NCBI RefSeq assembly: GCF_016065055.1
Contig: NZ_CP065856.1
Location: 1,177,836 to 1,241,835, forward strand
Source: Halosimplex litoreum
GTDB lineage: Archaea; Halobacteriota; Halobacteria; Halobacteriales; Haloarculaceae
DNA length: 64,000 nt
Direction: 5' to 3'
The notes beneath the pieces were generated by a model. It ran no database searches and was not told where the DNA came from. It saw only the letters and a program-made list of their open reading frames with translations. The translations under genes were made by a program, and so were the position numbers. Positions 11,301 to 28,107 of this stretch are shown piece after piece. The number at the start of each line of letters is the position of its first letter. Positions within the stretch are counted from its first letter, which is position 1.

Positions 11301-12338
11301 ATGAGCGAGCCATCGACGACGCGCCCCGCCGGCGAGCTTCGCGACCTGCTCGGAGCGGGCGAATCGATCACCATCCTCTGTCACAACAACCCTGACCCCG
11401 ATTGCCTGGCGAGCGCGCTCGCGCTCGGACAGATCGCCGCGTCCGCCGGCGTCGACGAGTGGCAGATCGTCTACAGCGGAGAGATCTCCCACCAGCAGAA
11501 TCGCGCGTTCGTCACCCTGCTCGACATCGACTTAGAGCGGTTCGACCCCGAGACGGTTCGGGACCGGCCCGAAGCGTCGCTGCTCGCGTTCGTCGACCAC
11601 TCGGTCCCCGGCCAGAACAACCGGGTCCCCGAGGGGACTCCCGTCGATATCGTCGTCGACCACCACCCGGCCGACGAGGTCGACGCCCGGTTCGTCGACC
11701 GCCGCGAGGCGGTCGGCGCGACCGCCACCATCTTCACCGAGTACGTCCGCGACCTCGACACGAACCTCGACGCGGACCTCGCGACCGCACTGTTGTTCGC
11801 GATCCGCCGGGAGACCCTGGAGTTCCTCCGCGGGACGACCCGCGCCGAGTACGAGGCCGCCGGCTTCCTCCAGGAACACGCCGACACCGACCTGCTCCGG
11901 CAACTGGCCAGCCCGTCGGCCAGCGGCGCTACGCTCGACGCCATCGCCACCGCCATCGAGAACCGCCGCACCCGCGGCTCGGTGCTCATCTCCCACGTCG
12001 GCCGCACCACCGAACACGACGCCCTCCCCCAGGCCGCCGACTACCTCCAGACGCTCGAAGGCGTCGAGACCGCCATCGTCTTCGGCATCGTCGGCCGCTC
12101 GATCCATCTCAGCGGGCGGACGACCGACCCGCGCATCCACCTCGGCGACGCGCTCGACGACGCCTTCGCCGACGTGGGCACCGCCGGCGGCCACCAGGAC
12201 ATGGCCGGCGGCGAAGTTCCGCTGGGCGTCTTCGCCGACTACACCGCCGACGACGAGCACCTGCTCGCCATGGTCGAAGCGGTCGTCAGCGACCGCCTCG
12301 TCTCCGAGTTGCGGCTTTCCGAGGACTCGTCAGGGTGA
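11301..12338 (+). CDS. DHH/DHHA1 family phosphoesterase (NrnA/RecJ-like)
   Basis: 345-residue Mn-dependent phosphoesterase predicted to cleave short oligonucleotides or cyclic-dinucleotide products. Motifs in order: HNNPDPDCLASALALG (motif I, near residue 32), FVDHSVPGQNN (motif II), VVDHHPADE (the DHH motif, near residue 118), and a C-terminal DHHA1 glycine-rich motif GTAGGHQDMAGG near residue 295. ATG 11301 begins directly at the first plausible codon. Cytosolic. It is divergent from the NadE-like gene. Confidence 0.85.
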   Translation: MSEPSTTRPAGELRDLLGAGESITILCHNNPDPDCLASALALGQIAASAGVDEWQIVYSGEISHQQNRAFVTLLDIDLERFDPETVRDRPEASLLAFVDHSVPGQNNRVPEGTPVDIVVDHHPADEVDARFVDRREAVGATATIFTEYVRDLDTNLDADLATALLFAIRRETLEFLRGTTRAEYEAAGFLQEHADTDLLRQLASPSASGATLDAIATAIENRRTRGSVLISHVGRTTEHDALPQAADYLQTLEGVETAIVFGIVGRSIHLSGRTTDPRIHLGDALDDAFADVGTAGGHQDMAGGEVPLGVFADYTADDEHLLAMVEAVVSDRLVSELRLSEDSSG

Positions 12339-12910: not shown

Positions 12911-13013
12911 CGAGTCGGTCCGGCGACCGCGGGTGCGGGGGCGCGTTTTCGCGGCCAGTTCGTGATTTTTGATTTGCATCATATTTTTACCTTTCGGCAG
13001 TCACCGCTCTAGC

Positions 13014-13694
13014 ATGAACGGGACGAGTGTCGGACGCCGCCGGTTTCTGTCGGCCGCTGCCCTGTCCGGTCTCGGTGGGCTGGCCGGCTGTCTGGGATCC
13101 GGCGGCGTCTCGGACGCGGGGAAACGTGACGTTTCGTCGAATCCTGTCGCCAGTTCGTTGGACGGGCGTCCCCGACTCGGTCCCGCGCGGTCAGAGACCG
13201 ACATCACGCTCGTGACCTTCGACGACCCCAGCTGTCCGTCGTGTGCCAGCTACCACGGCGGGACGTTCGGGGAGATCGAGTCGAAGTGGGTCGAATCCGG
13301 GAAGGCGACCGTGTACAACCGACTCTACCCGTACGTCGCCCCGTGGGGACGGACGGCTATCCACGCCCTCGTCGCGCTCAACCGCCGGCGACCCGAACAG
13401 TTCTGGTCGCTCAAGTCGAAGTACTACGCCAACCAGGACCGGCTCTCGGCGGACAACATCGTCGAGGAGACCAGGCGGTTCCTCCGGGACACCGATGTCG
13501 ACGCCGACGCCGTCGCGCGGGCCGCGGAGAACGGCGCCAACGAGTCGTACGTATCGACGGAAGTGTCCGACGGGGACGACGCCGGGCTCTACGGTGTCCC
13601 GCTCACCTACCTGTTCGAGGACGGCGAGTTCGTGACGACGATCATGACCGAGAGTTTCGGTACGTTCTCCAGTGCGGTCGAGAGCCATGGGTAG
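13014..13694 (+). CDS. DsbA-like thioredoxin-fold Tat lipoprotein
   Basis: 226 residues. N-terminus GRRRFLSAAALSGLGGLAGC combines a twin-arginine motif with a lipobox, so the protein is probably exported folded and lipid-anchored on the outside. The thioredoxin active site is DDPSCPSCASYHG near residue 80, and the cis-proline region is GLYGVPLTYLFEDG near residue 195. Likely a thiol-disulfide oxidoreductase. An AT-rich TATA-like element (atattttt, around 12980-12990) lies ~25-30 nt before the ATG. The stop overlaps the start of the membrane partner gene by 8 bp. Confidence 0.85.
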   Translation: MNGTSVGRRRFLSAAALSGLGGLAGCLGSGGVSDAGKRDVSSNPVASSLDGRPRLGPARSETDITLVTFDDPSCPSCASYHGGTFGEIESKWVESGKATVYNRLYPYVAPWGRTAIHALVALNRRRPEQFWSLKSKYYANQDRLSADNIVEETRRFLRDTDVDADAVARAAENGANESYVSTEVSDGDDAGLYGVPLTYLFEDGEFVTTIMTESFGTFSSAVESHG

Positions 13695-14277
13695 CCTCTC
13701 GCTGCCGACCAGTTCGACGGACTGGCGCCGAACCGCCCGGACGACTCGGGACGTGCTTCGCTCGCCGCAGTGGCTGGCGGTGGCGGTCCTCGGGGCCGTG
13801 TTGACGGTCACGACGTTCGCCGCGTTCAACAGCCCGGTGTACGTCCGACGGGTCGTCGTCGGCGGCGACCTCTCCGTGGTCGGCCGGGTTCAGGCGCTCG
13901 CCTCGCTGTATCCGCTCGCCGGCCCCAGCACCTACGTGCTACAGGACACGCTCCTGTACGTCATCGCGGCCGTCGTCGGGACGAACCTCGCGGTGGTCGG
14001 GTATCACCTGCGCCGAAACACGGTCGGGCTGCGAAGCGGGACCGGAGGCGCGTTCGGCGTCGTCGTTGGGACCCTCGGTGCCGGCTGTGCCCCCTGCGGT
14101 GCGGCGGTGTTCGCGGGTATCACGTCGGTGTTGGGTGTCACTACGGGGGTTTCCGCGCTCCCGTTGAAAGGCGCCGAGTTCCTAGTGCTTTCGCTGGCCG
14201 TGGCAGTTCTCTCGCTGTACTGGGTCGCCGACGGCGTCAGAATGGCGGACCGCGAGGTGTGCCCCGTCGACCCCTGA
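13687..14277 (+). CDS. Membrane protein with GCxPCG motif, partner of the DsbA-like lipoprotein
   Basis: 196 residues, four to five predicted transmembrane helices. A helix containing LGAGCAPCGAAVFAG carries two cysteines spaced CxxC next to glycines, suggesting redox or metal exchange in the membrane. ATG 13687 overlaps the DsbA-like gene end, so the two are co-translated. The same pairing recurs at 48425-49707 with a GCASCG motif. By analogy with CcdA/DsbD it could pass electrons to the lipoprotein, but it has no clear homology to those that I can see. Confidence 0.7.
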   Translation: MGSLSLPTSSTDWRRTARTTRDVLRSPQWLAVAVLGAVLTVTTFAAFNSPVYVRRVVVGGDLSVVGRVQALASLYPLAGPSTYVLQDTLLYVIAAVVGTNLAVVGYHLRRNTVGLRSGTGGAFGVVVGTLGAGCAPCGAAVFAGITSVLGVTTGVSALPLKGAEFLVLSLAVAVLSLYWVADGVRMADREVCPVDP

Positions 14278-14446: not shown

Positions 14447-14868
14447 TTAGCACTCTACAGTCTGTTCGGCCCATCGGTCCGAGTCGTTCTGATAGACCAT
14501 TTTTTGACCAGAATGCTGCCAGAGCACGGATCGCGGTCCATTTCGTAGGTTATCGTGTATGGAAATGAATCACACACTATCGTTGTTTCCCCCTGACTTC
14601 CCGATGAATCTATCGTCCCGATGCTATGACGGCAGACGACCGTTCCCTGTTCGTTTTGAACGACTACCGATACGTTTCGGATCGGTTCCCAGTCGCCGGA
14701 AACACCGACTTCCGTCTCGGCACGGATTTCATACCCGGACTCTACCTCACTCACATCGAGTGACCGGACGCTAATCGAGATATTCGAATCAGCCAGACAT
14801 CCCGCAACAGCTACCCCTGCGAGTCCCACTGCGGCCAGAGTTTCGCGTCGAGTCACTCGATCAGTCAT
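14447..14868 (-). pseudogene. Group B partner lipoprotein, frameshifted near the C-terminus
   Basis: Third member of the small lipoprotein family in the array (others 15728-16153 and 14979-15413). It has a lipobox signal (LAGVAVAGC), a beta-rich body with VGVSGDWEPIRNVSVVVQNE and the family motif SFPYTITYEMDRDPC. Compared with the intact copy, one base is missing in the A-run after LVKK (around 14500), so the open frame ends at 14455 with an unrelated tail. Restoring the base gives a tail ending VEC and a TAA at 14447, as in the intact copy. No protease tip precedes it. Could still yield a nearly full-length protein. Confidence 0.7.
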
Positions 14869-14978
14869 TTATCCAATTCGTGCCGGCAAATAGTATAGTT
14901 TCGTAGGGAATGCCGATATCGTTTTTGTGATCGCTACCCGTGTGGAGACCACCCGCTCAATCGTGTACCGCGAACCAA

Positions 14979-15413
14979 TCAGTCGTCACATTCGACGATC
15001 TCCTCCGTCGACCAATCTTCTTCCTCGACGTACACTCGCTTGTGAACGGTGGTATCCCCCCGGCACGGATCACGGTCTAACTCGTACGTGATCGTGTGAG
15101 GGAACTCGTCGCAGGTGAAAGTGACCGGATCGTATTCACCCGATTTTGTGAGGTCACCAATCGGATTCCGACAGACGACGACATCCGCCTCAATTTATAT
15201 TACAACTGATACGTTACGGAATGGTTCCCAATCACCGACGACTCCGACTTCCGGCGTCATCTCAATCGTGTATGTCCCATCTGATTCTGATACGTTGAGT
15301 GAGTCCGTCCCGAGACTCGCTTGAGACCCAGAATCAGGGACACAGCCAGCGAACGAAGCCATCGCTGCCGACACGACAGCGAGCAAACGTCGTCTCGTGA
15401 ATCGGTCAGTCAT
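14979..15413 (-). pseudogene. Group B partner lipoprotein with a premature stop
   Basis: Starts at ATG 15413 with a lipobox (VVSAAMASFAGC) and the family core VGVVGDWEPFRNVSVVI, then hits a TAA at 15197-15195. The same frame continues past it with family-matching sequence (VVVCRNPIGDLTKSG, EFPHTITYELDRDPC, ending IVECDD) to a stop at 14979. Alignment with the siblings puts a Gln at the stop, so CAA to TAA is the likely lesion. Its ATG overlaps the stop of the protease-tip fragment at 15406-15723, reproducing the tip-partner gene order. Confidence 0.8.
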
Positions 15414-15723
15414 TTTTCGATGGGATATCCTCAAAGTCTACCGTGAAGAGTTCCTCAATGCTGAAGACGAAGCGGTCCCCATCGAGGCTATCTGGTCGAC
15501 CAGTCGGTGCCATAATACTCCACACGGAGTCCGGGTTCTGGCTGTTGGGGAAGACGACCTCCTCCCGCGTTTCGTCGTTGCCTCCACCGACGCCAAACTG
15601 ACCGACACAGAAACTACCGCTGTAACACTCGGCGATGTGGCCGGACCCTTTGTCGTCGAGCCAGCCGATTCCCAGGCCGTGGCCGAGTTCGTACATAATC
15701 TCATTGCCTCGCGAATAATCCAC
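15406..15723 (-). pseudogene. C-terminal fragment of group B metalloprotease tip with His-to-Tyr zinc-site change
   Basis: About 105 residues matching the end of the tip encoded at 16146-18269: ELGHGLGIGWLDDKG, HIAECYSGSFCVG, a Met-turn-like WSIMAP and a FSIEELFTVDFEDIPS tail. The first zinc ligand of HELGH reads YELGH, so the site is broken. The rest of the tip and the linker are missing upstream. It directly abuts the intact partner gene that ends at 15728. A dead remnant of an earlier cassette. Confidence 0.8.
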
Positions 15724-15727
15724 GGTA

Positions 15728-16153
15728 TTAACACTCTACATTTTCTGGGGCCCAACTGTCTGTGTCGTCCTGATAGACCATCTTTTTGACTAGAATACTT
15801 TCCGAGCACGGGTCCCGATCCATCTCGTACGTTATCGTATGTGGGAAATGTTCACACGCCATTGTTGTTTCCCCCTGACTTCCCGATGTATTTATCGTTC
15901 CGATGTTTCGACGACATACAACTGTTCCCTGTTCATTTTGAACAACCACCGATGCGTTTCGGATTGGTTCCCAGTCACCGGAAACTCCAACTTTCGTCTC
16001 AACGTGGATCTCGTATTCGGACTCCATTTCGCTCACATTGAGTGATCGGACGCTGATCGAAACATTCGAACCAGGACCGTGACATCCCGAGACAGATACT
16101 CCCGCGAGCACCATAGCGGTCAGGATATCGCGTCGAGTTACTCGATCAGTCAT
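15728..16153 (-). CDS. Group B partner lipoprotein (putative immunity/inhibitor)
   Basis: Intact 141-residue copy. N-terminal Tat-like/Sec signal with lipobox (VSVSGC), then a predicted Ig-like beta sandwich: VGVSGDWEPIRNASVVVQNE, FPHTITYEMDRDPC and a C-terminal VEC. Its ATG at 16153 overlaps the stop of the upstream metalloprotease-tip gene by 8 bp, so the two are translationally coupled. I infer an outward-facing lipid-anchored protein that binds and neutralises the neighbouring tip. Base composition is lower in GC than flanking chromosomal genes. No known family was recognised. Confidence 0.75.
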   Translation of the reverse strand: MTDRVTRRDILTAMVLAGVSVSGCHGPGSNVSISVRSLNVSEMESEYEIHVETKVGVSGDWEPIRNASVVVQNEQGTVVCRRNIGTINTSGSQGETTMACEHFPHTITYEMDRDPCSESILVKKMVYQDDTDSWAPENVEC

Positions 16154-18269
16154 CTGTCGAAGGGATGTCCTCGAAGTCGATAGTCAGTACTTCTTCGATA
16201 CTGAACCCATACATATTATTCCTGATCGGTTCCGGATCATCGGTGGGGGCCATAACACTCCAGACCTCTTGTCTATTCCCTCCGAGGACTACTTCCTCGG
16301 GGGTTTCATCGTTGCCATCGCCAACACCGAAGGCACCGACACAGAAACTCCCGCTGTAACACTCGGCGATGTGGCCGGGCCCTTTGTCGTCGAGCCAGCC
16401 GATTCCCAGGCCGTGGCCGAGTTCGTGCATCGTCGTGCTCTTCAACGTCTCGACGTCGCTTAATTCTGGTTGGTCGGCCAGTATGACTGATCCATACGGT
16501 GCGGTCGGGATCAGATTGCGTTGGCCCGGTGAGCCAGTGTGACCTTCGAGTCCGTCGACGTCGGAATCGATAAAGGGGTCGTGAGTCGACAATATCGGTG
16601 TGTCAGCCGCGTAGTTCGTCGCGAACAGGATGTGATGTCTACTGGTGTCGTCGTGGTACTGATCTTCTACCTTGTCGAGTTCGTGCGCGTTCAACCCAGG
16701 AAGGGTGACTGTGCCACCGCAGGTAGGTCCGGGCCCAGCTATAGGCTGTTTGCAGACACTAGTTACGTTGGCAGTCGTGAGGCGGTCGTCCCGGTGGAAG
16801 ACGATATTGAGTCCATAGAGGGCATAGTTGTCCTCGATCGAGTCGAGCAGACGCTGCCCGCCGATGGTCTCGTTGTACGGGTTTTGTCCTTCGATCCAGT
16901 CCACCTCGACGTGCAGAGTCGTTCGCTGGTCCAGACTGGGTGTCGGCGTTTCCGGGACGGTCCCCCAGTGGAGTTCACCGATGTGGGTATTCGAGTGTTC
17001 GAGGTTGTTGTCGCCGTCGATGTCCGCACCTGTAATCGGACTCGAAACGTTGTGGATTCCGACCTGTTCGGAGACGATTTCGTCGCCTTCGATCCCATCT
17101 CCAGTTGAAAGATGCTCCTGGTACAGAACGACGTTATCAGACCACTCTACCCCGTAGACCCCTATCCAGCCGTCCCAGTACCCGTCACCGTCGGTGTCGG
17201 CATCCGCCGGGTCGGTCCCGTAACTCACGCTCTCGTCAGTCTTGACGACACTCCGGCCGTTGACCTTCGTCAGCCCGTGGACTTCTTGACCGTCGGTCAA
17301 GCCGTCGTCGTCCGTGTCGGGATCCCAGACACCCAGCTCGCCCGCGTTGAACACCTCCCAGTCGAGTTCCTCCCCGTTCGACAGCCACGTGTCGGTCCGG
17401 GTCGTCCCGTCCAGCGCCGTGAAGTCGAGCCGGTCGACGAAGTTCTTCCCGTCGTCGGGCCGCACGAAGTCGAAGTCGTCGGTCCGGTCGGACAACTCCA
17501 GCGACGACAATTGCTCGCGATTGTCGACGATGTGGGCGCCGATCGCCACCCTGGCACGGCCGTCCGCTTCGAGACGTTCGACGAGGTCCTGATGTCGCTC
17601 GGTCAGTTCGTACGTTACCTCGGCTCTGGGGTCGGTAAACGTGGTCGCTTTCTCGACGCCGTCGACGAGACCGTCACCGTCGGTGTCACGGTCCAGCGGA
17701 TCCGACGCGACGTGTAGACTTCCGAGCGTTCGCCCACTCTTCGGTGGATCACTCTTCGAACGATTGTAGTACCGGAACGGGTCGCCGTTGGCCGTCTCGA
17801 CGACGGTGATGTTCCACCCTCTGAACTCGTCGTCTAATGCGCCATCACCGTCGGTGTCCGGGTCCGTCGGATGTGTCGTCGAGTTGGCGACCAACCGCGC
17901 TGTCTCGCGCGTCTCGTTCGCGGGTAATCGCCGCACCGAGTACTCCTGGCTGTCCAACACACCGTCGTCGTCAGTGTCCGGGTCCTGCCAGGACGTGTTG
18001 AACGTCTGTGTCGGTCGAATCCGCCCGGTCGTACGGCCCGAATCCGTCGCCGCCCCGTGCTCGTACGTGTAGGTCTTGTTCTCCCAGCCGTTCCACAGCC
18101 CGTCACCATCCGTGTCCGTCCGCGTCGTCACCTGCAACCGCGTCGAGACGTTCGCCGACACCGCCCGCACCGTCACGTCAGTGCCCGGCTGGAACGCGTC
18201 GAACGAGACATATTGGCGCACCGTGCCGACCGTCCCCATGGTCAGATTGCACTCCTTCGAGAGCGGCAA
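16146..18269 (-). CDS. Orphan cassette B: DxDGDG-repeat linker plus HELGH metalloprotease tip, lacking the N-terminal part
   Basis: 707-codon open frame from a weak TTG. Residues ~8-500 match the linker of the 1622-residue protein (from its residue ~938): GTVGTVRQY, DTDGDGLWNGWENKTY, DTDGDGYWDGWIGVYG. The last ~300 residues are different, with MHELGHGLGIGWLDD at about residue 614, a WSVMAP Met-turn-like motif and FSIEEVLTIDFEDIPS. There is no signal peptide or promoter: homology begins abruptly at ~18247 right after the previous partner gene. Probably a silent donor or an unexpressed tip, unless translated by re-initiation. Confidence 0.75.
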   Translation of the reverse strand: MPLSKECNLTMGTVGTVRQYVSFDAFQPGTDVTVRAVSANVSTRLQVTTRTDTDGDGLWNGWENKTYTYEHGAATDSGRTTGRIRPTQTFNTSWQDPDTDDDGVLDSQEYSVRRLPANETRETARLVANSTTHPTDPDTDGDGALDDEFRGWNITVVETANGDPFRYYNRSKSDPPKSGRTLGSLHVASDPLDRDTDGDGLVDGVEKATTFTDPRAEVTYELTERHQDLVERLEADGRARVAIGAHIVDNREQLSSLELSDRTDDFDFVRPDDGKNFVDRLDFTALDGTTRTDTWLSNGEELDWEVFNAGELGVWDPDTDDDGLTDGQEVHGLTKVNGRSVVKTDESVSYGTDPADADTDGDGYWDGWIGVYGVEWSDNVVLYQEHLSTGDGIEGDEIVSEQVGIHNVSSPITGADIDGDNNLEHSNTHIGELHWGTVPETPTPSLDQRTTLHVEVDWIEGQNPYNETIGGQRLLDSIEDNYALYGLNIVFHRDDRLTTANVTSVCKQPIAGPGPTCGGTVTLPGLNAHELDKVEDQYHDDTSRHHILFATNYAADTPILSTHDPFIDSDVDGLEGHTGSPGQRNLIPTAPYGSVILADQPELSDVETLKSTTMHELGHGLGIGWLDDKGPGHIAECYSGSFCVGAFGVGDGNDETPEEVVLGGNRQEVWSVMAPTDDPEPIRNNMYGFSIEEVLTIDFEDIPSTDD
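17091..17483. repeat. Long direct repeat, copy 1 (linker of cassette B)
   Basis: About 390 bp almost identical to 19664-20056 (offset 2573), with only scattered substitutions and no gaps seen. It encodes the segment from LDGTTRTDTWLSN to DGYWDGWIGVYG. Such identity in the middle of divergent tips suggests recent duplication or gene conversion. Confidence 0.85.
17567..18247. repeat. Long direct repeat, cassette B copy of the full gene's linker
   Basis: About 680 bp colinear and highly similar to 23807-24487 (offset 6240), covering the region from NLTxGTVGTVRQY to EVTYELTE. The upstream limit near 18247 is abrupt and marks the left junction of the orphan cassette. Confidence 0.8.
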
Positions 18270-18321
18270 GCAATTCTGAGGCCCAGTAGTCGGTTCGCCT
18301 CTGATCGTGGGTTTCCCGCGG

Positions 18322-18786
18322 TCAGTACTCTGGATCGTAGTCCGAATATGTCCTGTATCGGTGGATTCCTTCGTATTTATCGGTCAAACGTAAACCGATA
18401 GCGTCCCCAGCCGCGTTAGACGGTTGACTCAGTGAGTCGTACTTGAAATTGATATAGTGGGGGCGCTGGGGGAGTACAACGCTGAAATTGTGGTACCCCG
18501 TTCCACGTTCGTTGGCCATCGTTCCGAGGCTGTGGCTCTCGATGACACGCCTATTAGCGGAGAGGAAGACGGCTTTTACGCCTGTGAGTTTTACACCATC
18601 TCCCTGCCCCTGAATAGAGAGAGTTACTGTCATGTTGATCCCGGTATCCATCTGAGAGATTCGTTCCACATCGCCTTCCAGTGTCCACGATTGGGGACTG
18701 GCGTGACACCCAGCTACAACGACCAATAGACAGATCCCTGCTGTGAGGCTTATATCGTTACGAACCATCGTTTTCAACTGTGGCAA
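18322..18786 (-). CDS. Group A partner lipoprotein (putative immunity/inhibitor)
   Basis: 154 residues, or ~148 if the second Met (MVRNDISL) is used. Signal with lipobox CLLVVVAGC, then a beta-rich domain: VKLTGVKAVFLSANRRVIE, SLGTM, RPHYINFKYDSLSQPS, GLRLTDKYEG and a Tyr-rich end RYRTYSDYDPEY. It is clearly homologous to the partner of the full-length gene (21976-22419), which shows VVLNGVKVVFLTQN, RPYYINLRYDS and RYVTYAEYTATY. The start overlaps the end of the preceding tip gene by 29 bp. Predicted membrane-anchored binder of that tip. Confidence 0.75.
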   Translation of the reverse strand: MPQLKTMVRNDISLTAGICLLVVVAGCHASPQSWTLEGDVERISQMDTGINMTVTLSIQGQGDGVKLTGVKAVFLSANRRVIESHSLGTMANERGTGYHNFSVVLPQRPHYINFKYDSLSQPSNAAGDAIGLRLTDKYEGIHRYRTYSDYDPEY

Positions 18787-20106
18787 TGTTGCGCAGTTCG
18801 ACGGATAGTAGCTCCTCGATACTATATGCCATGTACGAACCGTTCATCGGGTGGGCAGCCGCTTCATCTACCCATCCGGAAGACATGACGCTCCATCTTG
18901 GATCGTCGAATACGGGCCTTCCAACGGCTTCGAGAGTCCGATCTACTGGAGGGTTCTCACTGCCGCTGTATACTTCACCGAACGGATTGAGTCCCACACC
19001 ATCATCTTTCCGTCCAGCACCGATGATATGGCCGACTTCGTGTACTATCGTCTTTTGTAGATGATGTGCACGCTTGTGATTTGGATTCTGAGACTGGTCG
19101 TGATCCGCGGTGAATATGAGTACGCCCCATCCAAATCCAGCACTGTTCCCGTTTGTAGAAGCGATCCCCTCATCAAAACTTTGAACGATGAATTCAGAGT
19201 TATTCCCACCTTCCGTTGTCACGAACATATAGAGTTTCGACGGCTCGTCGTGATACATCTGCTCCAGAGCGACGCTCTCTTTGTAATCTATCGGCAAGCC
19301 GACTTTCCCATATTGCAGTAGTTTAGTCCGGAGATAAGAGCGGGAAAACGTATCGGAGCTTGTGAACGTGATGTTGAATCCGTATAACGCGTAGTTGTTG
19401 CTAACGTTCTCGAACAACTGTTCGAACCCGATCGGATGAGCGGAAGCGTTCTCGTACCGGTCGACTTCGACAGCGAGGTCGAGGTCGGGTTCCGAACCTG
19501 CGTCTATCGGATCTGCCGAATGGCCCGCTTTGCCGTCCCAGTACGTCTCGCCCAGATGGATATTCGAGTGTTCGCGTTTGCCGTCGCTGTCGACATCTGC
19601 ACCTGGCACTGGACTCGAAACGTGATGGGTGCCGATCTGTTCGGGCACTACTTCTTCACCTTCGATCCCATCTCCAGTTGAAAGATGCTCCTGGTACAGA
19701 ACGACGTTATCAGACCACTCTACCCCGTAGACCCCTATCCAGCCGTCCCAGTACCCGTCACCGTCGGTGTCGGCATCCGCCGGGTCGGTCCCGTAACTCA
19801 CGCTCTCGTCGGTCTTGACGACACTCCAGCCGTTGACCTTCGTCAGCCCGTGGACTTCTTGACCGTCGGTCAAGCCGTCGTCGTCCGTGTCGGGATCCCA
19901 GACACCCAGCTCGCCCGCGTTGAACACCTCCCAGTCGAGTTCCTCCTCGTTCGAGAGCCACGTGTCGGTCCGGGTCGTCCCGTCCAGTGCCGTGAAGTCG
20001 AGTCGGTCGACGAAATTCGTCCCGCCGTCGGGCCGCACGAAGTCGAAGTCGTCGGTCCGGTCAGTCAACACGAGATCGTCGACGCGCCCGCGCCGCTCGA
20101 CGATGT
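18758..20106 (-). CDS. Orphan cassette A2: linker plus HEVGH metalloprotease tip, no N-terminus
   Basis: The frame is open from 20347, but homology to the linker starts only at ~20105 (DIVERRGRVDDLVLTDRTDDFDF), so codons upstream are junction sequence overlapping the previous partner gene. Linker repeats DPDTDDDGLTDGQEV and DTDGDGYWDGWIGVYG are followed by a tip closely related to the full-length gene's tip: NASAHPIGFEQLFENVSNNYAL, TIVHEVGHIIGAGRKDDG, RWSVMSSGWVD, YSIEELLSVELRNIATV. No signal peptide or obvious start codon. The cognate partner follows at 18322-18786. Confidence 0.75.
19664..20056. repeat. Long direct repeat, copy 2 (linker of cassette A2)
   Basis: Nearly identical partner of 17091-17483. 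The two cassettes sharing it carry different tips, so the repeat is exactly where recombination could swap tips. Confidence 0.85.
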
Positions 20107-20108
20107 CC

Positions 20109-20681
20109 TTACCATGCCACCTTGCTGCCTGTTCTAGCCAAGGTAAGGTCCATAGTACGGAGTGCCGCTGGATTGAGCAGTCCAGTATTCGGCGAGGTCT
20201 TCGTTGACGTTCTGTGAAATTTCGGGAATTCTGCCTTCGAAGAGGCCCATTTTGACTGGTAGTTGGGCTGCCCGTCGAACATTCCCGCTTTGTAGTAGTA
20301 GAGGGTTTGAATATTAGACCGGGACCAAAAGTCAGGAGAGTCGACAATCACGTACTTTGGCGCGGTTTCGACCCGTACCGAAACGTTTAGTCTACTATTG
20401 AGTTCTCCGACTCCCCGTTTCTCTAATAATTCTCCGTCTTCAGAGTAGAAATAGACCGAGATATTTTCGATCCCTGGTTCCGAGTAAGGATTTGGGATAA
20501 TCGCACCATGCATCTGAAATCGATCTCCAACCATTTCGAACTGGCCGTCAAACTCAACATCGGTCCCAGGTCCGGGGGAGATCGCGGCAGAAAACAGGAC
20601 GAGGTAGATGACGGCAGCGACTACCAGTGCCAAGCAACCGAACAGTAAGTACCGAGGGGGGATATCTGTATCAGCAGTCAT
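20109..20681 (-). CDS. Group C partner protein, N-terminally membrane-anchored
   Basis: 190 residues. A single N-terminal transmembrane helix (YLLFGCLALVVAAVIYLVLFS) replaces the lipoprotein signal of the other partners. The body has the same strand pattern as the others (IENISVYFYSEDGELLEKRGVGEL, APKYVIVDSPDFW) but little sequence identity. Its ATG overlaps the stop of the group C tip gene by 4 bp (ATGA). The last ~50 residues look like junction sequence created where cassette A2 begins, so the native end may lie upstream. Predicted partner of the group C tip only. Confidence 0.65.
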   Translation of the reverse strand: MTADTDIPPRYLLFGCLALVVAAVIYLVLFSAAISPGPGTDVEFDGQFEMVGDRFQMHGAIIPNPYSEPGIENISVYFYSEDGELLEKRGVGELNSRLNVSVRVETAPKYVIVDSPDFWSRSNIQTLYYYKAGMFDGQPNYQSKWASSKAEFPKFHRTSTKTSPNTGLLNPAALRTMDLTLARTGSKVAW

Positions 20682-21880
20682 GGCTTTTCGATACTCAGAA
20701 GCTCTTCGATAGAGTAAACGTAGTACCCGACACTATCGGATTCGAAGACTGTTCCGCTCCTCCAACCTTTACTCATCACACTCCACCGAGCACCCGGGCG
20801 ATTGGCCAGTGTCTCGGTTGTTGAGTCCCCATCTCCGCCGGTGTATACTTCTGAGAACGGCAACGGACCGACATGGTCGTCAGCCAAACCGATGTCGAAC
20901 GAGTGGCCCAGTTCGTGCAGTTCTGTTTTCGCTGCGTAGAGCTCAGTCTCTGTATTATACGGAGAAACGGAGACGTGAGCCTGTCCGTTCTTGTAGTCGT
21001 CCTGTGCGAGCGTTTGCGCGTAGATCATGTGTCCGTTGAGTGGTATCGGTGCCGGCACCACTGAAGCGTCGAGATTATATCCGGTTGAATCTCCTGCAAT
21101 ATTATTTTTCTTCACCACAGATAAGTGGAGATCTGTATTCATGTCGGACTCGATACCAGTGAGAGCAGCTACCTCGGTGACGGTATCATCGCGTTTGAGG
21201 TCCAGATCGATCCCGTAAAGAGCGAGATTTTGTTCGATCCCCGCTTCCCAGACACTGTTGTTGAGGCGGTTTTCTGGAAGTCCAGCGATGAAGTCCGCTT
21301 CGACGGATATGCTGAGGTTCGGTGTGCTACCCCCTGTAGGATCCGTATGCCACTGCAACTCACCGATGTGAACGTTCGAGTGTTCCCGAGTACCATCCCG
21401 GTCGATGTCTGCGCCGATCGAAGACGACTGAAGCATGTCGTGAATGCCGACCTGCTTTTGAACGATTTCAGTACTATCGATCCCACCGCCAGTCAGCAGA
21501 TTTTCACGATAAAGCACAACATTGGTTGTGAACTCCGAACTCACGTTGTAGACTCCGATCCAGCCATCCCAGTACCCGTCGCCGTCCGTGTCCGGATCCG
21601 TCGGATCCGTGTCGTAGCTCACCGACTCGTCTATCTCGACGAGATCGGAACTCACTGCTTCTGTCACATCGTGAACTTCCTGACCGTCGGTCAACCCGTC
21701 GTCGTCAGAGTCCGGATCCCACGGGTTGACGCTCCGCTTAAACACGAGCGATTTGTCGACCTCCTCTTCGTTCGACAGCCACGTGTCCGTCCGCACGACC
21801 GAATCCAGCGCGTGGAAGTCCACTCTGGCCAGGTCCTAGCCGAACGTCGGCCGGACGAAATCGAAGTCGTCGGTATCGGT
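20678..21880 (-). pseudogene. Orphan cassette C: linker with nonsense codon plus HELGH tip
   Basis: Homology to the linker of the full-length protein begins near 21880 (TDDFDFVRPTFG), and an in-frame TAG at 21838-21836 replaces a Gln codon of the full gene (FGQDLARVDF). Downstream the frame is open from GTG 21823 for 381 codons: DPDSDDDGLTDGQEV, DTDGDGYWDGWIGVYN, then a third kind of tip with LHELGHSFDIGLADDH near codon 303 of that frame, RWSVMSKGW and YSIEELLSIEKP. Without a signal peptide or promoter, it could only act as a recombination donor; donated 3' sequence would be intact. Confidence 0.75.
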
Positions 21881-21975
21881 GCTCAACGGGCCCGAGAAGA
21901 ATTGGACGGTATCGATGGTTCGACCGTCCGTCGGCTCGTCCATATCGAGGGGAGCGGTTCGCGGCCAGACGGCTA

Positions 21976-22419
21976 TCAGTACGTCGCCGTGTACTCCGCG
22001 TAGGTGACGTACCGGTACTGGCTTTCTCCACTACCCATGAGCCGTAATCCGACGACGCCGCCGTCAGCGTCGGTCGGTCGATCGACGCTGTCGTACCGTA
22101 GGTTGATGTAGTACGGTCGCGTCGGCGTGGTAACGGTAAACGACCGACCCCCACCCCAGTCGATCTCGACGGTTCCTAGGCCGGTTTCGTTGAGGACAGT
22201 TTCGTTTTGAGTGAGGAACACGACTTTGACGCCGTTCAGAACCACCGGACTCGCGTTCCCCTCCAAGGTGAACTGAACGGTCGTCGAGTGCCCGTCGTCG
22301 GTCTGGACACTGTCTGAGACTTCCGGAGCGACTGTCCACCCCTTCGATTCGTTCCCGACCTCGTGGCAACCGGCAGTCAAGACGAGAAGAACGACGAGAT
22401 ACTTCGCGTAACGAGTCAT
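21976..22419 (-). CDS. Group A partner lipoprotein of the full-length protein (putative immunity/inhibitor)
   Basis: 147 residues with a typical lipoprotein signal (YLVVLLVLTAGC), then a ~120-residue beta-rich domain ending RYVTYAEYTATY. Begins 10 bp after the stop of the 1622-residue gene, so both are expected on one transcript. Homologous to 18322-18786, whose neighbouring tip is also homologous. The location on the outer membrane face is where a secreted self-protease would have to be blocked. Function inferred from context only. Confidence 0.75.
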   Translation of the reverse strand: MTRYAKYLVVLLVLTAGCHEVGNESKGWTVAPEVSDSVQTDDGHSTTVQFTLEGNASPVVLNGVKVVFLTQNETVLNETGLGTVEIDWGGGRSFTVTTPTRPYYINLRYDSVDRPTDADGGVVGLRLMGSGESQYRYVTYAEYTATY

Positions 22420-22429
22420 CGTCTATGTA

Positions 22430-25400
22430 CTAGTCCCTCCTCACAGTCGCGATGTTATTGAATTCGATCGTCGATAGCTCCTCGAGGCTGAATGCGATGT
22501 AGTTCCCGTTCATCGGTGGGGCGTTGAGGTCGTCAACCCAGCCGCGAGTCATCACGCTCCAACGTGGGTCATTGTACCCGGGTATTCCGGAGTATTCCAA
22601 AGTCTCGTCAATTCCGTTTCTCTGAGCACCGCTGTATATTTCGCCAAATGGATTGAGTCCCTTCCCATCGTCTGCTCTACCCGCTCCGAGTATGTGCCCG
22701 ATTTCGTGGGTGATGGTCTTCTGGAGATGAGTCGAACGACTGTGGTTTCTCGATCCGTTGTGATCCCGTGTAAACACGAGGACACCCCATCCGAATCCAC
22801 CCACATCGTTTCCGTTCGTCGAAGCGATGCCTTGGGTACCGTTGAAGCTCGGAGCGAGGTACCCGGAGTTCTCGGCGCCTTTCGTTGTCACGAAGGTGTA
22901 GAGCTTAGACTTATCATCGTGCTCGATCTGCTCCAAAGCGACACTCTCTTCGTAACCTATCGGTAGTCCCACCTTTCCGTAGGGGAGTAGTTTGGTTCGA
23001 AGGCGGGAGCGGGAAAACGTATCAGACATAGTGAACGTGACATTGAATCCGTACAGTGCGTAGTTGTTGCTAACGTTCTCGAACAATTGTTCGAACCCGA
23101 TCGGATGGGCGGAAGCGTTCTCGTACCGGTCGACTTCGACAGCGAGGTTGAGGTCGGGTTCGGATCCTGCGCCCATCGGATCTGCCGAATGTCCCGCTTT
23201 GCCGTCCCAGTACGTCTCGCCCAGGTGGATGTTCGAGTGTTCGCGTTTGCCGTCGCTGTCGACATCTGCGCCCGGTACCGGTCCTGAAACGTGATGTGTG
23301 CCGACCTGTTGTGGGACCACCTCGTCGCCTTCGACCCCGTCACCGGTGTAGAGATGTTCCTGATACAGGATCACGTTGTCGCTCCAGTCGACACCGTACA
23401 CCCCGATCCAGCCGTCCCAGTACCCATCGCCGTCCGTGTCCGGGTCCGTCGGATCCGTCTCGTAACTCACCGACTCGTCCATCTCGACGAGGCCGGCACT
23501 GACGGTTTCCGTCACCCCGTGGATTTCCTGCCCGTCGGTCAGCCCGTCGTCGTCCGAGTCAGGATCCCACGGATTGACGCTCCCGTTGAACACGACCGAT
23601 TTGTCGACTTCTTCCTCGTTCGAGAGCCACGTGTCCGTCCGCACGACCGAATCCAGCGCGTGGAAGTCCACTCTGGCGAGATCTTGCCCGAACGTCGGCC
23701 GGACGAAGTCGAAGTCGTCGGTCCGGTCGGTCAACTCCAGCGACGACAATTGCCCACGGCGCTCGACGATATGCGCGCCGATAGCCACACCCGCACGGCC
23801 ATCCGCTGCCAGATCCTCGATGAGGTCTTGATGCTGCTCGGTCAGTTCGTACGTTACCTCCGACTTGGGGTCGGTGAACGTGGTCGCTTTCTCGACCCCG
23901 TCGACGAGACCGTCGCCGTCAGTGTCACGGTCCAGCGGGTCCGAAGCGACGTGTAGGCTCTCGACCGTTCGTCCGCTCTCCGGTGGATCGCTTTTCGAAC
24001 GGTTGTAGTACCGATACGGGTCGCCACTTGCGGTTTCGACGACGGTAATGTTCCAGCCGCGGAACTCGTCGTCCAGCAAGCCGTCGCCGTCGGTATCGGG
24101 CATCGTCGGATGGGTCGTCGAATTGGCGACCAGCCGCACCGTCTCGCGCGTCTCGTTCGCGGGCAGTCGCCGCACCGAATACTCCTGACCGTCGGCAACC
24201 CCGTCGTCGTCAGTGTCCGGGTCTTTCCAGGACGTGTTGAACGTCTGGGTCGGCCGTATCCGCCCGGTCGTGCGGCCCGAATCCGTCGCCGCCCCGTGCT
24301 CGTACGTGTAGGTCTTGTTCTCCCAGCCGTTCCACAGCCCGTCGCCATCGGTGTCCGTCCGCGTCGTCACCTGCAGCCGCGTCGAGACGTTCGCCGACAC
24401 CGCCCGCACCGTCACGTCAGTGCCCGGCTGGAACGCGTCCAGCGGAAGGTACTGGCGCACCGTCCCGACCGTCCCCAGCGTCAGATTGTACCGTTCGGTA
24501 ATCTGACGGCGATTCCGCGGGTCGGCCGCCTGCTCGTACCCGCTCACGACCACCGTCGCGTTGGGGTCGATCCCCGTCTGCTCGGTCTGGTAGGTCAGGT
24601 CCAGCCCGCGGTCGCCGACCGCCGACGGCACGTCGTAACTCCATTCGAGCGAGCCGTTCATCGCGCGGTCGGAACCGCTGGCCTGCTCCCGCGTCTCGGG
24701 CACTTCGATGGTGATCGGCTCGTCCACGTCGAGACTGACGTTGCGCGGGTCAGTCGCCTGGCCGGTGAGGAACTGCCAATCGGTGATTTCGCCCGTCGTC
24801 AGCGGTTCGAGTCGCGCGGCACTGCCGAACGCCGACGCGACGGTAAACGTCGAGTTGACCAGCCCGCCGCGGTAGGCGCCGCCGTCGGTGTTTTGCCCGT
24901 TCCAGGTCCAATCGGGGTCCATCCCGTCGTCGGAGTAGTCGTCTTTCGCGGGTAGCTGGTCGTCTCTGACGACCCACCGGCCCTCTTCAGTCGGAAGCCC
25001 CGAGATATCGAGCGATGCCGCGCCACCCGACCCGTCGTTCGGAAGATCGTGAACCGTGACGAGGCTCAGTCCGTTGGGGCCCGCCCAGAAGAACAACCGA
25101 CTCGTATCACTCGCCGCGACCGGGAGCGGCGAGTTGAGTTGCGCGCTCCCGTAGTTGTAGAATTTCTGGATCGATTGACCGTTACTCAGCGGCACGACCG
25201 AGAACTCCCGGTCGCCCTGCCGGACCACGATCTCCCTGGCGTCCGGCGTCCCGCCCAGCGTCGCCGTCGCGTTCGTCACGTTGCAATCGCCCGAACACGA
25301 GAGCCGACCCGCGTCCCGTTCGGTCTCGAGATCGACCGGCGCGACGCCGTCGACCCGGCGAGCCGACCGCCAGCTGTCCACGTCGATGACCGTGTAGTAC

Positions 25401-27298
25401 GAGAACGAATCGGTCGTCACCGTCGCCGTCCCGTTCGCCCGGTCGAACGTAGCGCCAACGTTGTGCCAGTCGCCGCCGCGCGTCCCGTCCCACTTGTACA
25501 CCGCCAGGTCGTCGTACTCGGACGGGTCGCGCGAGTTCGCGATCGCCAGTGTGAGCGTCGCGCTTTGGAAGCTCGTCCGGTTCTCGATGTGGACCGTTGG
25601 CCCGGCGCTGACGGTCTCGTTGCCCAGCGGACTCGGCGTCTCCTCGACCGTGACACCGCTGGCGACGTTCCCCGCGCCCGTTACCGACAGCGAGACGCCG
25701 ATCGTCTCGTTCTCGATCCGCGTCGTGTACGTCTCGTTGCCGTCGTCGACGCCGTCGCCGTCGGTATCGGGGTCGAGCGGGTCGGTCTCGAACGGCGCGG
25801 TCGGCTCCTCGGCGTCGGTGAGGCCGTCGCCGTCCGAATCGGCGTCGAGCGGGTCCGTCCCGTTGGCCAACTCGGCAGGGTCGGAGACGCCGTCGGCGTC
25901 GCCGTCGGCGAACAGCGGCGCGGTTCCCTCGGCGACCTCCTCGGCGTTGGTCAGTCCGTCGCCGTCGGGGTCCTCCGCGCCGTCGACGGTCCCGTCGTCG
26001 TCCGTGTCCGCCACGAGTGGGTCGGTCTCGGTCAGGAACTCCTCGCGGTCGGTCAGGCCGTCACCGTCCGTGTCGGCGTCGAGCGGATCGGTCCCGATGT
26101 CGTGTTCGGTCAGTGTCCCGAGCGAGTCGTCGTCGAAGTCCGCCCGACCGTCGATCGTCCCGTCGTCGGCCTCGTCGGCGCCGGTCGCCGACGAGTCGCT
26201 GTCGGGGTCGAGCGGGTCCGTCCCGAGGACTTCGGTCTCGTAGGTCGCGTTCAGGCCGTCACCGTCGAGCCTGAGTGTCGCGTTCGCGCCGGTCGTTCCG
26301 TTGTTCCCGGCGACGGTCACACGAACGCGGTTCCCGCCCGCGTCGAGCGGCACCGAGACGGCGACCGGGAGACTTCGGTTCTCGGTGACGGTCAGGCCGG
26401 AGAGGTTCCGTTCGGCGACGCGCTCGCCGTCGACTGCGGCCGCGAGCGTCTCCAGCGAGACCGGACCGTCCGCCGAGACGTTCACGCCGACGGTGTAGTT
26501 GCCGGGTTCGCTCCGGTTCCGGATCGGGTCGTTTCTGGAGAGGACCGTCGCCGAGACGTTCCCGTCGAGCCGTCCGTCGGTCTCGTTGCCGTCACCAGCG
26601 CCAGTCTCGTTGCCCTCGCCGATGGTCCCGACAGGCAACGTCGCGTTCGTCCGCTCGACCGCCCGTTCGACGACGAAGTGGGCCTGTCGCCATGTCTCTC
26701 GCAACTGCCGGATCGCGCTCGCACGCAACCGGAGCGCCCGCCGTCCGTCTACGTCGCGCGCCCGAGACATCGTCTCCTCGGCGCGGTCGTAGGTCCGCTC
26801 GGCGTTGTCCAGATGCGCCTCCATACTGCGGACGATCCCCTCGTTGTCGATCGCTTCGCGAGAGTCGTTCAGCAGCCGTCGGGCATCGGTTATCTCCTGG
26901 GAGGCAGTCCGGTTATCCATCCGCACGACAGCGTCTGCGACCGCCGTCGCGTTGGCCTCCGTGTCGGTCCCGGCGAACGCCCGCAACGCTTGGATCCCCT
27001 TCGCGTCGTGATTGAACAGTTTCGTCGAGGACGCGCGGACCGGTCCGCGATAGTGTCGCCGCGAATCGTTGAATCGGCCGACAGCGCGGTCGCGCGCCGA
27101 CTCGAACCGTCCCTTCGTCGCGGTCAGTTCCCTCGTGTCGTCGACCGCCTGTGCCTTCAGTGACTGGGGCGCGTTGTCCGCCGTGATTGATTCGTTGCCA
27201 CCCGCCTCGACCACCCCGACCGAGACCAGCGGCGCGAACGTCGCCGTCACCAGCAGGTAGGCAGCCACCACTGCCCCCAGGCGACCAATAGATCCCAT
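22430..27298 (-). CDS. Large secreted DxDGDG-repeat protein with C-terminal metalloprotease-like domain (polymorphic-toxin-like)
   Basis: 1622 residues from ATG 27298. In order: Sec signal peptide (residues 1-33); Arg/Glu-rich helical, probably coiled-coil region (~45-215); beta-rich segment; six or more DxDxDG calcium-type (thrombospondin-3-like) repeats (~360-510, e.g. DTDGDGLTDREE); a large beta-rich middle; further repeats (DTDGDGLWNGWENK, DSDDDGLTDGQE, DTDGDGYWDGWIG, ~960-1290); and a variable tip with THEIGHILGAGRADD at ~1530, Met-turn-like WSVMTRGW and SLEELSTIEFNNIATV. HExxH plus the Met-turn suggest a zinc peptidase; the usual third metzincin His is absent, with DD nearby instead. 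Its partner gene follows at 22419. Confidence 0.8.
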   Translation of the reverse strand: MGSIGRLGAVVAAYLLVTATFAPLVSVGVVEAGGNESITADNAPQSLKAQAVDDTRELTATKGRFESARDRAVGRFNDSRRHYRGPVRASSTKLFNHDAKGIQALRAFAGTDTEANATAVADAVVRMDNRTASQEITDARRLLNDSREAIDNEGIVRSMEAHLDNAERTYDRAEETMSRARDVDGRRALRLRASAIRQLRETWRQAHFVVERAVERTNATLPVGTIGEGNETGAGDGNETDGRLDGNVSATVLSRNDPIRNRSEPGNYTVGVNVSADGPVSLETLAAAVDGERVAERNLSGLTVTENRSLPVAVSVPLDAGGNRVRVTVAGNNGTTGANATLRLDGDGLNATYETEVLGTDPLDPDSDSSATGADEADDGTIDGRADFDDDSLGTLTEHDIGTDPLDADTDGDGLTDREEFLTETDPLVADTDDDGTVDGAEDPDGDGLTNAEEVAEGTAPLFADGDADGVSDPAELANGTDPLDADSDGDGLTDAEEPTAPFETDPLDPDTDGDGVDDGNETYTTRIENETIGVSLSVTGAGNVASGVTVEETPSPLGNETVSAGPTVHIENRTSFQSATLTLAIANSRDPSEYDDLAVYKWDGTRGGDWHNVGATFDRANGTATVTTDSFSYYTVIDVDSWRSARRVDGVAPVDLETERDAGRLSCSGDCNVTNATATLGGTPDAREIVVRQGDREFSVVPLSNGQSIQKFYNYGSAQLNSPLPVAASDTSRLFFWAGPNGLSLVTVHDLPNDGSGGAASLDISGLPTEEGRWVVRDDQLPAKDDYSDDGMDPDWTWNGQNTDGGAYRGGLVNSTFTVASAFGSAARLEPLTTGEITDWQFLTGQATDPRNVSLDVDEPITIEVPETREQASGSDRAMNGSLEWSYDVPSAVGDRGLDLTYQTEQTGIDPNATVVVSGYEQAADPRNRRQITERYNLTLGTVGTVRQYLPLDAFQPGTDVTVRAVSANVSTRLQVTTRTDTDGDGLWNGWENKTYTYEHGAATDSGRTTGRIRPTQTFNTSWKDPDTDDDGVADGQEYSVRRLPANETRETVRLVANSTTHPTMPDTDGDGLLDDEFRGWNITVVETASGDPYRYYNRSKSDPPESGRTVESLHVASDPLDRDTDGDGLVDGVEKATTFTDPKSEVTYELTEQHQDLIEDLAADGRAGVAIGAHIVERRGQLSSLELTDRTDDFDFVRPTFGQDLARVDFHALDSVVRTDTWLSNEEEVDKSVVFNGSVNPWDPDSDDDGLTDGQEIHGVTETVSAGLVEMDESVSYETDPTDPDTDGDGYWDGWIGVYGVDWSDNVILYQEHLYTGDGVEGDEVVPQQVGTHHVSGPVPGADVDSDGKREHSNIHLGETYWDGKAGHSADPMGAGSEPDLNLAVEVDRYENASAHPIGFEQLFENVSNNYALYGFNVTFTMSDTFSRSRLRTKLLPYGKVGLPIGYEESVALEQIEHDDKSKLYTFVTTKGAENSGYLAPSFNGTQGIASTNGNDVGGFGWGVLVFTRDHNGSRNHSRSTHLQKTITHEIGHILGAGRADDGKGLNPFGEIYSGAQRNGIDETLEYSGIPGYNDPRWSVMTRGWVDDLNAPPMNGNYIAFSLEELSTIEFNNIATVRRD
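23807..24487. repeat. Long direct repeat, full-length gene copy
   Basis: Counterpart of 17567-18247 within the intact gene, at the start of the linker shared by all cassettes. Crossing-over here would replace everything downstream of residue ~938 by cassette B. Confidence 0.8.
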
Positions 27299-27504: not shown

Positions 27505-28107
27505 TCACATCGTCGTGTAGCGGTCCTCGGCCCAGGGATTGGCGGTGTTGGAGTAGCCGCGTTTCTCCCAGTAGCCTCGCTGGGGTTCGGTGAGGAAGGT
27601 GACGCCGTCGACCCACTTGGCGCCCTTGTAGGCGTACTTGTGGGGAGTGACCACACGCAGCGGGCCGCCGTGGTCTGAGGGGAGCGGGTCGCCGTCGAGC
27701 TCGCGGACGAACAGGACCTCCTGTCGCATGCACTCGTCGAGTGGGAGGTTCGTCGTGTAGCCGTCCATCGCGCCGAACATGACGTGGACGGCGTCGTCGG
27801 CCACCCCGGCGCGCTCGGCGATCTCCGGGAACGGCACGCCCACGAACTCGTTGTCGAAGCGACTCCAGCCGGTGACGCAGTGGAAGTCCTGGCGCTGGGT
27901 GTCGGTGGGAAGGTCGCGGAACTCGTCCCAGGAGTAGGTCAGTTCTTCCTCGACGGCGCCGCGGACGGTGAACGTCCACTCGTCGGGATCGAAGTCGGGG
28001 GTGTCTTTCAGCGAGAGGACGGGGAACCGCTCGGTCTCGCGCTGGCCCGGCGGGAGCCGGTCGCCGTCGAACTCCTCGTGGATGTCGGTCACGTCGCGGA
28101 TGCCCAT
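27505..28107 (-). CDS. Sulfite oxidase-like molybdopterin oxidoreductase (YedY/MsrP-type domain)
   Basis: 200 residues comprising a single oxidoreductase molybdopterin-binding domain. The Mo-ligand cysteine is in RQDFHCVTGWSRFDNEFVGV near residue 77; other family motifs are GYTTNLPLDEC, GGPLRVVTPHKYAYKGAKWV and GYWEKRGYS. There is no signal peptide, so it is likely cytosolic, unlike bacterial MsrP. Substrate may be a sulfoxide or sulfite but cannot be fixed. It faces the upstream gene of the array with a 200-bp gap. Confidence 0.85.
   Translation of the reverse strand: MGIRDVTDIHEEFDGDRLPPGQRETERFPVLSLKDTPDFDPDEWTFTVRGAVEEELTYSWDEFRDLPTDTQRQDFHCVTGWSRFDNEFVGVPFPEIAERAGVADDAVHVMFGAMDGYTTNLPLDECMRQEVLFVRELDGDPLPSDHGGPLRVVTPHKYAYKGAKWVDGVTFLTEPQRGYWEKRGYSNTANPWAEDRYTTM

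Follow-up and report, generated by a model that had tools for sequence, protein, structure and literature searches.

What kind of system is formed by a long gene that is followed, on the same strand, by truncated copies of its own 3′ end and by a set of small genes? Such a row occurs in Halosimplex litoreum, whose genome is a single contig of 4.16 Mb, within a 64,000-nucleotide stretch of contig NZ_CP065856.1 (positions 1,177,836 to 1,241,835), called here the window. The minus strand from 14455 to 27298 holds one full-length gene, four 5′-truncated copies (orphans) and six small partner genes. A first reading made from the DNA letters alone, the sequence-only reading, had proposed a polymorphic toxin locus. 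Our analysis makes it very probable that this is a haloarchaeal polymorphic toxin system, composed of a calcium-repeat stalk, metzincin-like protease tips and membrane-anchored immunoglobulin-like (Ig-like) immunity proteins. Toxicity, proteolysis, binding and inhibition by the partner, the target and expression are all predicted. The array and its two flanks are laid out as follows.

22430-27298, minus strand: full-length putative chassis-toxin gene, 1622 amino acids (aa) from the ATG, with signal sequence, N1 helical head, TSP3 calcium repeats, linker and metzincin-like tip A
26663-27283, minus strand: N1 head domain, constant, the chassis marker
25724-26110, minus strand: TSP3-type calcium-binding repeats (DxDGDG), PF18884, E 1.8e-17
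24671-25306, minus strand: domain D4 of the trunk
23429-24505, minus strand: second calcium-repeat linker (L5), common to the orphans, predicted recombination substrate
22433-23416, minus strand: tip A, HEIGHxLGxGxxDD ... EIYSG ... WSVM, with sub-threshold zincin/metzincin matches
21976-22419, minus strand: partner 1, with lipobox TAGC, the predicted surface-anchored immunity protein against tip A
20678-21823, minus strand: orphan tip B, linker plus tip, HELGH, without signal sequence
20109-20681, minus strand: partner 2, N-terminal membrane segment, overlapping the tip B stop, its C-terminal tail entering the next cassette
18758-20347, minus strand: orphan copy of tip A, HEVGH, 73% identical to the tip region of the full gene
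18322-18786, minus strand: partner 3, lipobox VAGC
16146-18269, minus strand: orphan tip C, 707 aa, HELGH, with the longest linker
15728-16153, minus strand: partner 4, lipobox VSGC, predicted eight-strand beta sandwich
15406-15723, minus strand: minimal orphan of tip C type, 105 aa, starting shortly ahead of HELGH and extending to the C-terminus
14982-15434, minus strand: partner 5, with an in-frame stop at 15195-15197, the frame resuming over 14982-15194
14455-14868, minus strand: partner 6, intact lipoprotein with no tip upstream, 75% identical to the mature region of partner 4
27505-28107, minus strand: conserved flank gene, molybdopterin oxidoreductase-like, a marker of the insertion site
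11301-12338, plus strand: the other conserved flank, DHH-type phosphoesterase-like

The full-length gene bears out its first description, with a Sec-type signal sequence (judged by reading the sequence), the DxDGDG repeats and the HEIGH tip. From the signal sequence its product runs through the N1 helical head (residues ~6-212), a poorly conserved stretch, the TSP3-type repeats (~397-525), a conserved post-repeat domain (529-643), D4 (665-876) and the second calcium-repeat linker (932-1290) to a 328-aa tip. TSP3_bac is its only Pfam domain above cut-off, and its N1 head is the sole one of the H. litoreum genome. Pfam found no Rhs/YD or filamentous haemagglutinin repeats in the protein, and no DUF4157/eCIS_core domain, which leaves delivery by an extracellular contractile injection system (eCIS) unsupported. 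A search of the genome for this domain was likewise negative, but so was its control. The orphans lack signal sequences. They had been described as starting within the linker, which holds for the first three, whereas the 105-aa copy begins inside the tip. Their start codons are uncertain, gene starts having been picked mechanically, and an in-frame TAG lies upstream in the linker of orphan 20678-21823. Likewise, five partners stand immediately 3′ of tips, as had been noted, but one of these is broken by a stop and the sixth stands alone. The repetition exceeds chance: the closest copies match each other at the DNA level with 74-90% identity across 0.5-1.3 kb, and the tip-partner unit recurs in some 20 of the genomes sampled. 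In a sample of 391 Halobacteria genomes from 86 genera, the metzincin tip was present in 20 genomes and 10 genera, a patchy distribution, while the N1 head reached 56 genomes in 28 genera.

The loci analysed were those found for their similarity to the window, and masked stretches conceal some of their neighbouring genes. Profile iteration over these loci recovered one partner family of ~120-190 aa, a member of which follows within a few bases after 59 of the 61 complete-ended tips (from related genomes). The partner start codon usually lies at -8, -4 or +1 relative to the tip stop. A lipobox was detected by pattern in 52 of 59 partners, and most of the remainder have a hydrophobic N-terminal membrane segment. 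Divergence is faster in the partners, with a median identity of 19% versus 37% in the tips, and the two sets of distances are correlated, with a Mantel r of 0.50 that none of 5000 free permutations (maximum 0.147) and none of 5000 within-locus shuffles (maximum 0.40) reached. Nearest neighbours agree in just 12 of 48 cases, so the pairing is one of correlated divergence rather than an exact match of trees.

The most decisive evidence is that the same trunk bears other toxin-like C-termini with other partner families. When 59 chassis proteins were grouped by C-terminus, they formed at least 20 clusters, a total that includes singletons and a few incomplete ends. The metzincin cluster has 12 members, two ExK/Mrr-like nuclease clusters have 8 and 7, a BECR-like cluster has 4 and another has 5, besides others; one C-terminus is metallo-beta-lactamase (MBL)/ComEC-like (E 2.8e-15). 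Three of these classes keep partners of their own: the ExK cluster occurs with partner family 1 in 8 of 8 cases, the Mrr-like cluster with family 2 in 6 of 7, and the BECR-like group, its two outliers included, with family 3. Classes are also mixed within single arrays. In locus L031, a BECR-tipped full gene and two family-3 partners are followed by a metzincin orphan fragment with its lipoprotein; in L025 and L028 the mix is reversed.

The location of the partner shifts with the type of tip. A hydrophobic N-terminus was found in 44 of 59 metzincin partners and, at the same threshold, in none of the 34 partners of non-metzincin tips (p 7e-14, a value that overstates independence because the rows are related). 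This is what would be expected if immunity sits where the toxin acts. If the partners are immunity proteins, nuclease-like tips would act in the cytosol and protease tips at the outer face of the membrane.

The sequence-only reading had allowed for a protease with inhibitors as an alternative. Here the locus would encode proteases secreted to the cell surface, together with lipoproteins that act as their dedicated inhibitors or chaperones; the family would serve own-surface processing or nutrition and would have multiplied by plain tandem duplication, with no weapon involved. The tips are proteases by motif, and the mature domain of the partner is confidently predicted as an eight-strand Ig-like sandwich (predicted local distance difference test, pLDDT, 95; predicted template modelling score, pTM, 0.85). 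Among its many Foldseek matches, all to generic Ig-like folds, one is to a protease inhibitor of Bacillus, BsuPI (3isy, prob 0.91, E 0.019), which is only a hint; a Pfam scan of the partners gave no consistent match. Such a pairing does not account for a trunk that elsewhere bears tips of nuclease-like, RNase-like and MBL type, whose cytosolic-type partners are unrelated, a finding that favours toxins, nor for the mixture of tip classes within one array. We regard this alternative as unlikely.

The array forms a hypervariable island at a fixed chromosomal site. Its two flank genes are convergent and lie ~40 bp apart in two array-free sister genomes (G002 and G006), while the distance between them is 15.2 kb in the window, 12.8 kb in H. 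pelagicum and 4.2 kb in H. carlsbadense, with different tip orders. A fixed gene order in relatives, named in the sequence-only reading as grounds for rejecting it, is not found: the arrays of the sisters at this site differ in length and content or are absent. This hypervariability and the patchy distribution also speak against surface proteases kept with their inhibitors, as do the tip-less partners and the presumably silent truncated tips.

The proposal that the calcium-repeat linkers are recombination substrates gained support from the pattern of identities. Between orphans 18758-20347 and 16146-18269, the last stretch of linker is 97% identical and the tip 31%; between tip B and its H. 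carlsbadense counterpart, the tip is 72% identical and the linker 51%. Such discordance is expected if the linker is a crossover substrate, which supports a predicted role in recombination between cassettes and trunk.

The array might instead be a decaying cluster of paralogues in a mobile island, with no current function. Its GC (guanine plus cytosine) content is 53-56% over much of its length against ~70% in the surroundings, one partner is stopped by a nonsense codon, and the copies are truncated and devoid of signal sequences. Set against this, the ratio of non-synonymous to synonymous substitution (dN/dS) is 0.14-0.22 for orphan tips, which are therefore not simply decaying (0.19-0.22 for orphan tip C, 16146-18269, versus the H. 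pelagicum and H. aquaticum copies), and 0.16-0.44 for most diverged partners, and start/stop overlaps are intact in dozens of tip-partner pairs. Decay appears to us barely credible.

The five tips of the window belong to one homologous family with three classes: A (full gene and 18758-20347), B (20678-21823) and C (16146-18269 and 15406-15723). In an alignment of 23 tips, HExGHxxxxGxxDD, E-Y-S-G and the Met-turn-like WSxM are invariant or near-invariant blocks. Weak profile matches were mainly to zincins and above all metzincins (BFT group E 0.2, MMP-12 E 0.28, Reprolysin_3 E 0.009, Zincin_1 E 5e-4). A search for haloarchaeal Reprolysin_3 proteins yielded none, and its control was silent as well. 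From these motifs and sub-threshold matches, we infer that the tip is a metzincin-like zinc protease, the suffix reflecting both the strength of the matches and the quality of the fold model.

Several observations weigh against a toxin system with protease tips. All zincin/metzincin profile matches of the tips are below cut-off, and the class assignments of the non-metzincin tips are mostly sub-threshold too. The metzincin motif HExxHxxGxxH/D is incomplete: HExGH is present, but the third zinc ligand, His at +6, is missing and replaced by a variable residue (R, W, L, E, others), an invariant Asp standing at +8 in an ungapped alignment to metzincins. Two of the 23 tips (L026:6312-10967 and L018:12146-14779) read EEIGH for HExGH and have thereby lost a zinc ligand, although they are otherwise conserved. 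Structure prediction, proposed at the outset for the tips and for tip-partner pairs, was as confident for the partner as it was poor for the tip, whose AlphaFold model from the 23-sequence alignment reached a pLDDT of 49 and a pTM of 0.51; a PDB fold search with this model gave no significant match and scattered weak metzincin rows, which we do not take as proof. L024 has a complete full-length tip without a detectable partner. Finally, recombination could partly explain the purifying selection on the orphans.

The loss of the first catalytic His from two tips would also suit a system of surface diversity that serves adhesion, recognition of kin or variation against phages, in which the tips bind and do not kill; the array architecture resembles that of VARTIG in Thermococcales (PMC8416519). 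However, HExxH, DD and WSxM are otherwise near-invariant across the 23 tips and enzyme-like tips occur on the same trunk elsewhere, and we consider binding tips very improbable.

The polymorphic toxin interpretation is thus retained. The system combines an export signal and a constant N-terminus, varied and unrelated C-termini, a cognate gene 3′ of the tip, orphan tip-immunity cassettes without the N-terminus, four of them in the window and many in relatives, and, as a pattern only, recombination between cassettes and trunk. This anatomy, with the pairing, the co-divergence and the other tip classes with their own partners, fits polymorphic toxin systems as they are defined. The full gene would encode a Sec-secreted stalk, stiffened by calcium-binding TSP3-type repeats, which would offer its C-terminal zinc-protease tip to neighbouring cells. 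The adjacent gene would supply an Ig-like lipoprotein, anchored to the membrane of the producer on its outer side, that blocks the cognate tip. A lipoprotein at this position suggests that the protease acts outside the cytoplasm, on the surface layer or surface proteins of rivals, and surface proteins of competing haloarchaea are its likely targets. The truncated cassettes would serve as a reservoir from which recombination in the near-identical linker could furnish the constant trunk with a new tip and its partner; the downstream partners that are kept may confer immunity to earlier tips and to relatives.

Makarova et al. 2019 are said to have predicted archaeal polymorphic toxin systems, toxin and immunity genes included. 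The TSP3 trunk may be among their groups, and the locus is regarded here as a variant of a kind predicted for archaea before. Bacterial polymorphic toxins such as Rhs, contact-dependent growth inhibition (CDI) and MafB (PMC3482391) likewise have a constant secreted N-terminus, a variable tip, a 3′ immunity gene and orphan tip-immunity cassettes, and metallopeptidase tips (Tox-MPTase1-5) are known there. Unlike them, the present stalk combines TSP3 calcium repeats with a haloarchaeal N1 head in place of Rhs or filamentous haemagglutinin, and the partner is a predicted extracytoplasmic Ig-like lipoprotein. The 2012 survey (Zhang et al., PMC3482391) credits haloarchaea only with toxins delivered by Photorhabdus virulence cassettes (PVC). 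In haloarchaeal pairs of the contractile injection (CIS) and type VI secretion system (T6SS) kind, a downstream gene was experimentally shown to protect against the toxin (PMC11566945), as is predicted here; they employ a contractile injection machine and DUF4157 proteins, in contrast to the Sec signal and missing DUF4157 match of our protein. VARTIG, for which roles in adhesion, complement-like action and self-recognition were proposed (PMC8416519), shares the large first gene and the co-directed C-terminal relatives with cognate membrane proteins but has Ig domains without recognisable enzymes, in another lineage and with other proteins. Reprolysins, matrixins and the fragilysin group share HExGHxxG and the Met-turn-like WSxM and gave the top weak profile matches, but differ at the third zinc ligand.

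Further observations concern the trunk and its surroundings. In Halosimplex loci L038, L039 and L040, the N1 head ends 5′-nucleotidase-like secreted proteins, which makes it a general surface module; D4, which has no Pfam family, also stands at the head of surface proteins rich in PKD, ~1200 aa long, from other haloarchaea (L036). N1/TSP3 trunk proteins with nuclease-, RNase-, MBL-like or unknown C-termini and their partner families are found in L100-L136, L031, L035, L041, L042, L046 and L048. Among them, a five-member cluster (L107, L110, L125, L127, L130) has the signature FVRVH...W...YVSDV.VP.G...G.V..NFGG..GATQF and a partner of ~110-140 aa. It gave no convincing Pfam or NCBIfam match where scanned, and presumably, by our own reading of the sequence and with no database match, resembles NAD-glycohydrolase toxins. 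Beside the arrays of L018, L025, L033, L096 and L099, N-masked stretches occupy the expected position of the full-length gene. The L004 array lies on a contig that binning assigned to the bacterium Salinivenus, by its look a mis-binned haloarchaeal contig or a transfer. In the window, DsbA-like and VKOR-like membrane genes (12969-14277) adjoin the array within the same insertion, the first without a close counterpart in the genus. A PADLOC scan gave no match.

Experimental knowledge of contact or surface toxins in archaea is scant. This locus represents a complete, chromosomally mapped predicted system, for which sister species offer naturally empty sites and which has cognate pairs for cross-testing. 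It names an uncharacterised predicted metalloprotease family with its likely specific inhibitors, and the rule that partner compartment follows tip class predicts the site of action of each toxin. The trunk is usable as a probe for dozens more archaeal toxins, and candidates for haloarchaeal toxins and their immunity proteins can be taken directly from the trunk loci listed above. In a wider view, to which we give an even chance, haloarchaea as a class would possess a stalk chassis with swappable warheads, of which the window class would hit the surface of the target cell with a protease whose third zinc ligand is unusual and which a membrane-anchored Ig-like inhibitor would neutralise. Immunity would be worn on the outside, and this would be the first polymorphic toxin class aimed at the archaeal envelope.
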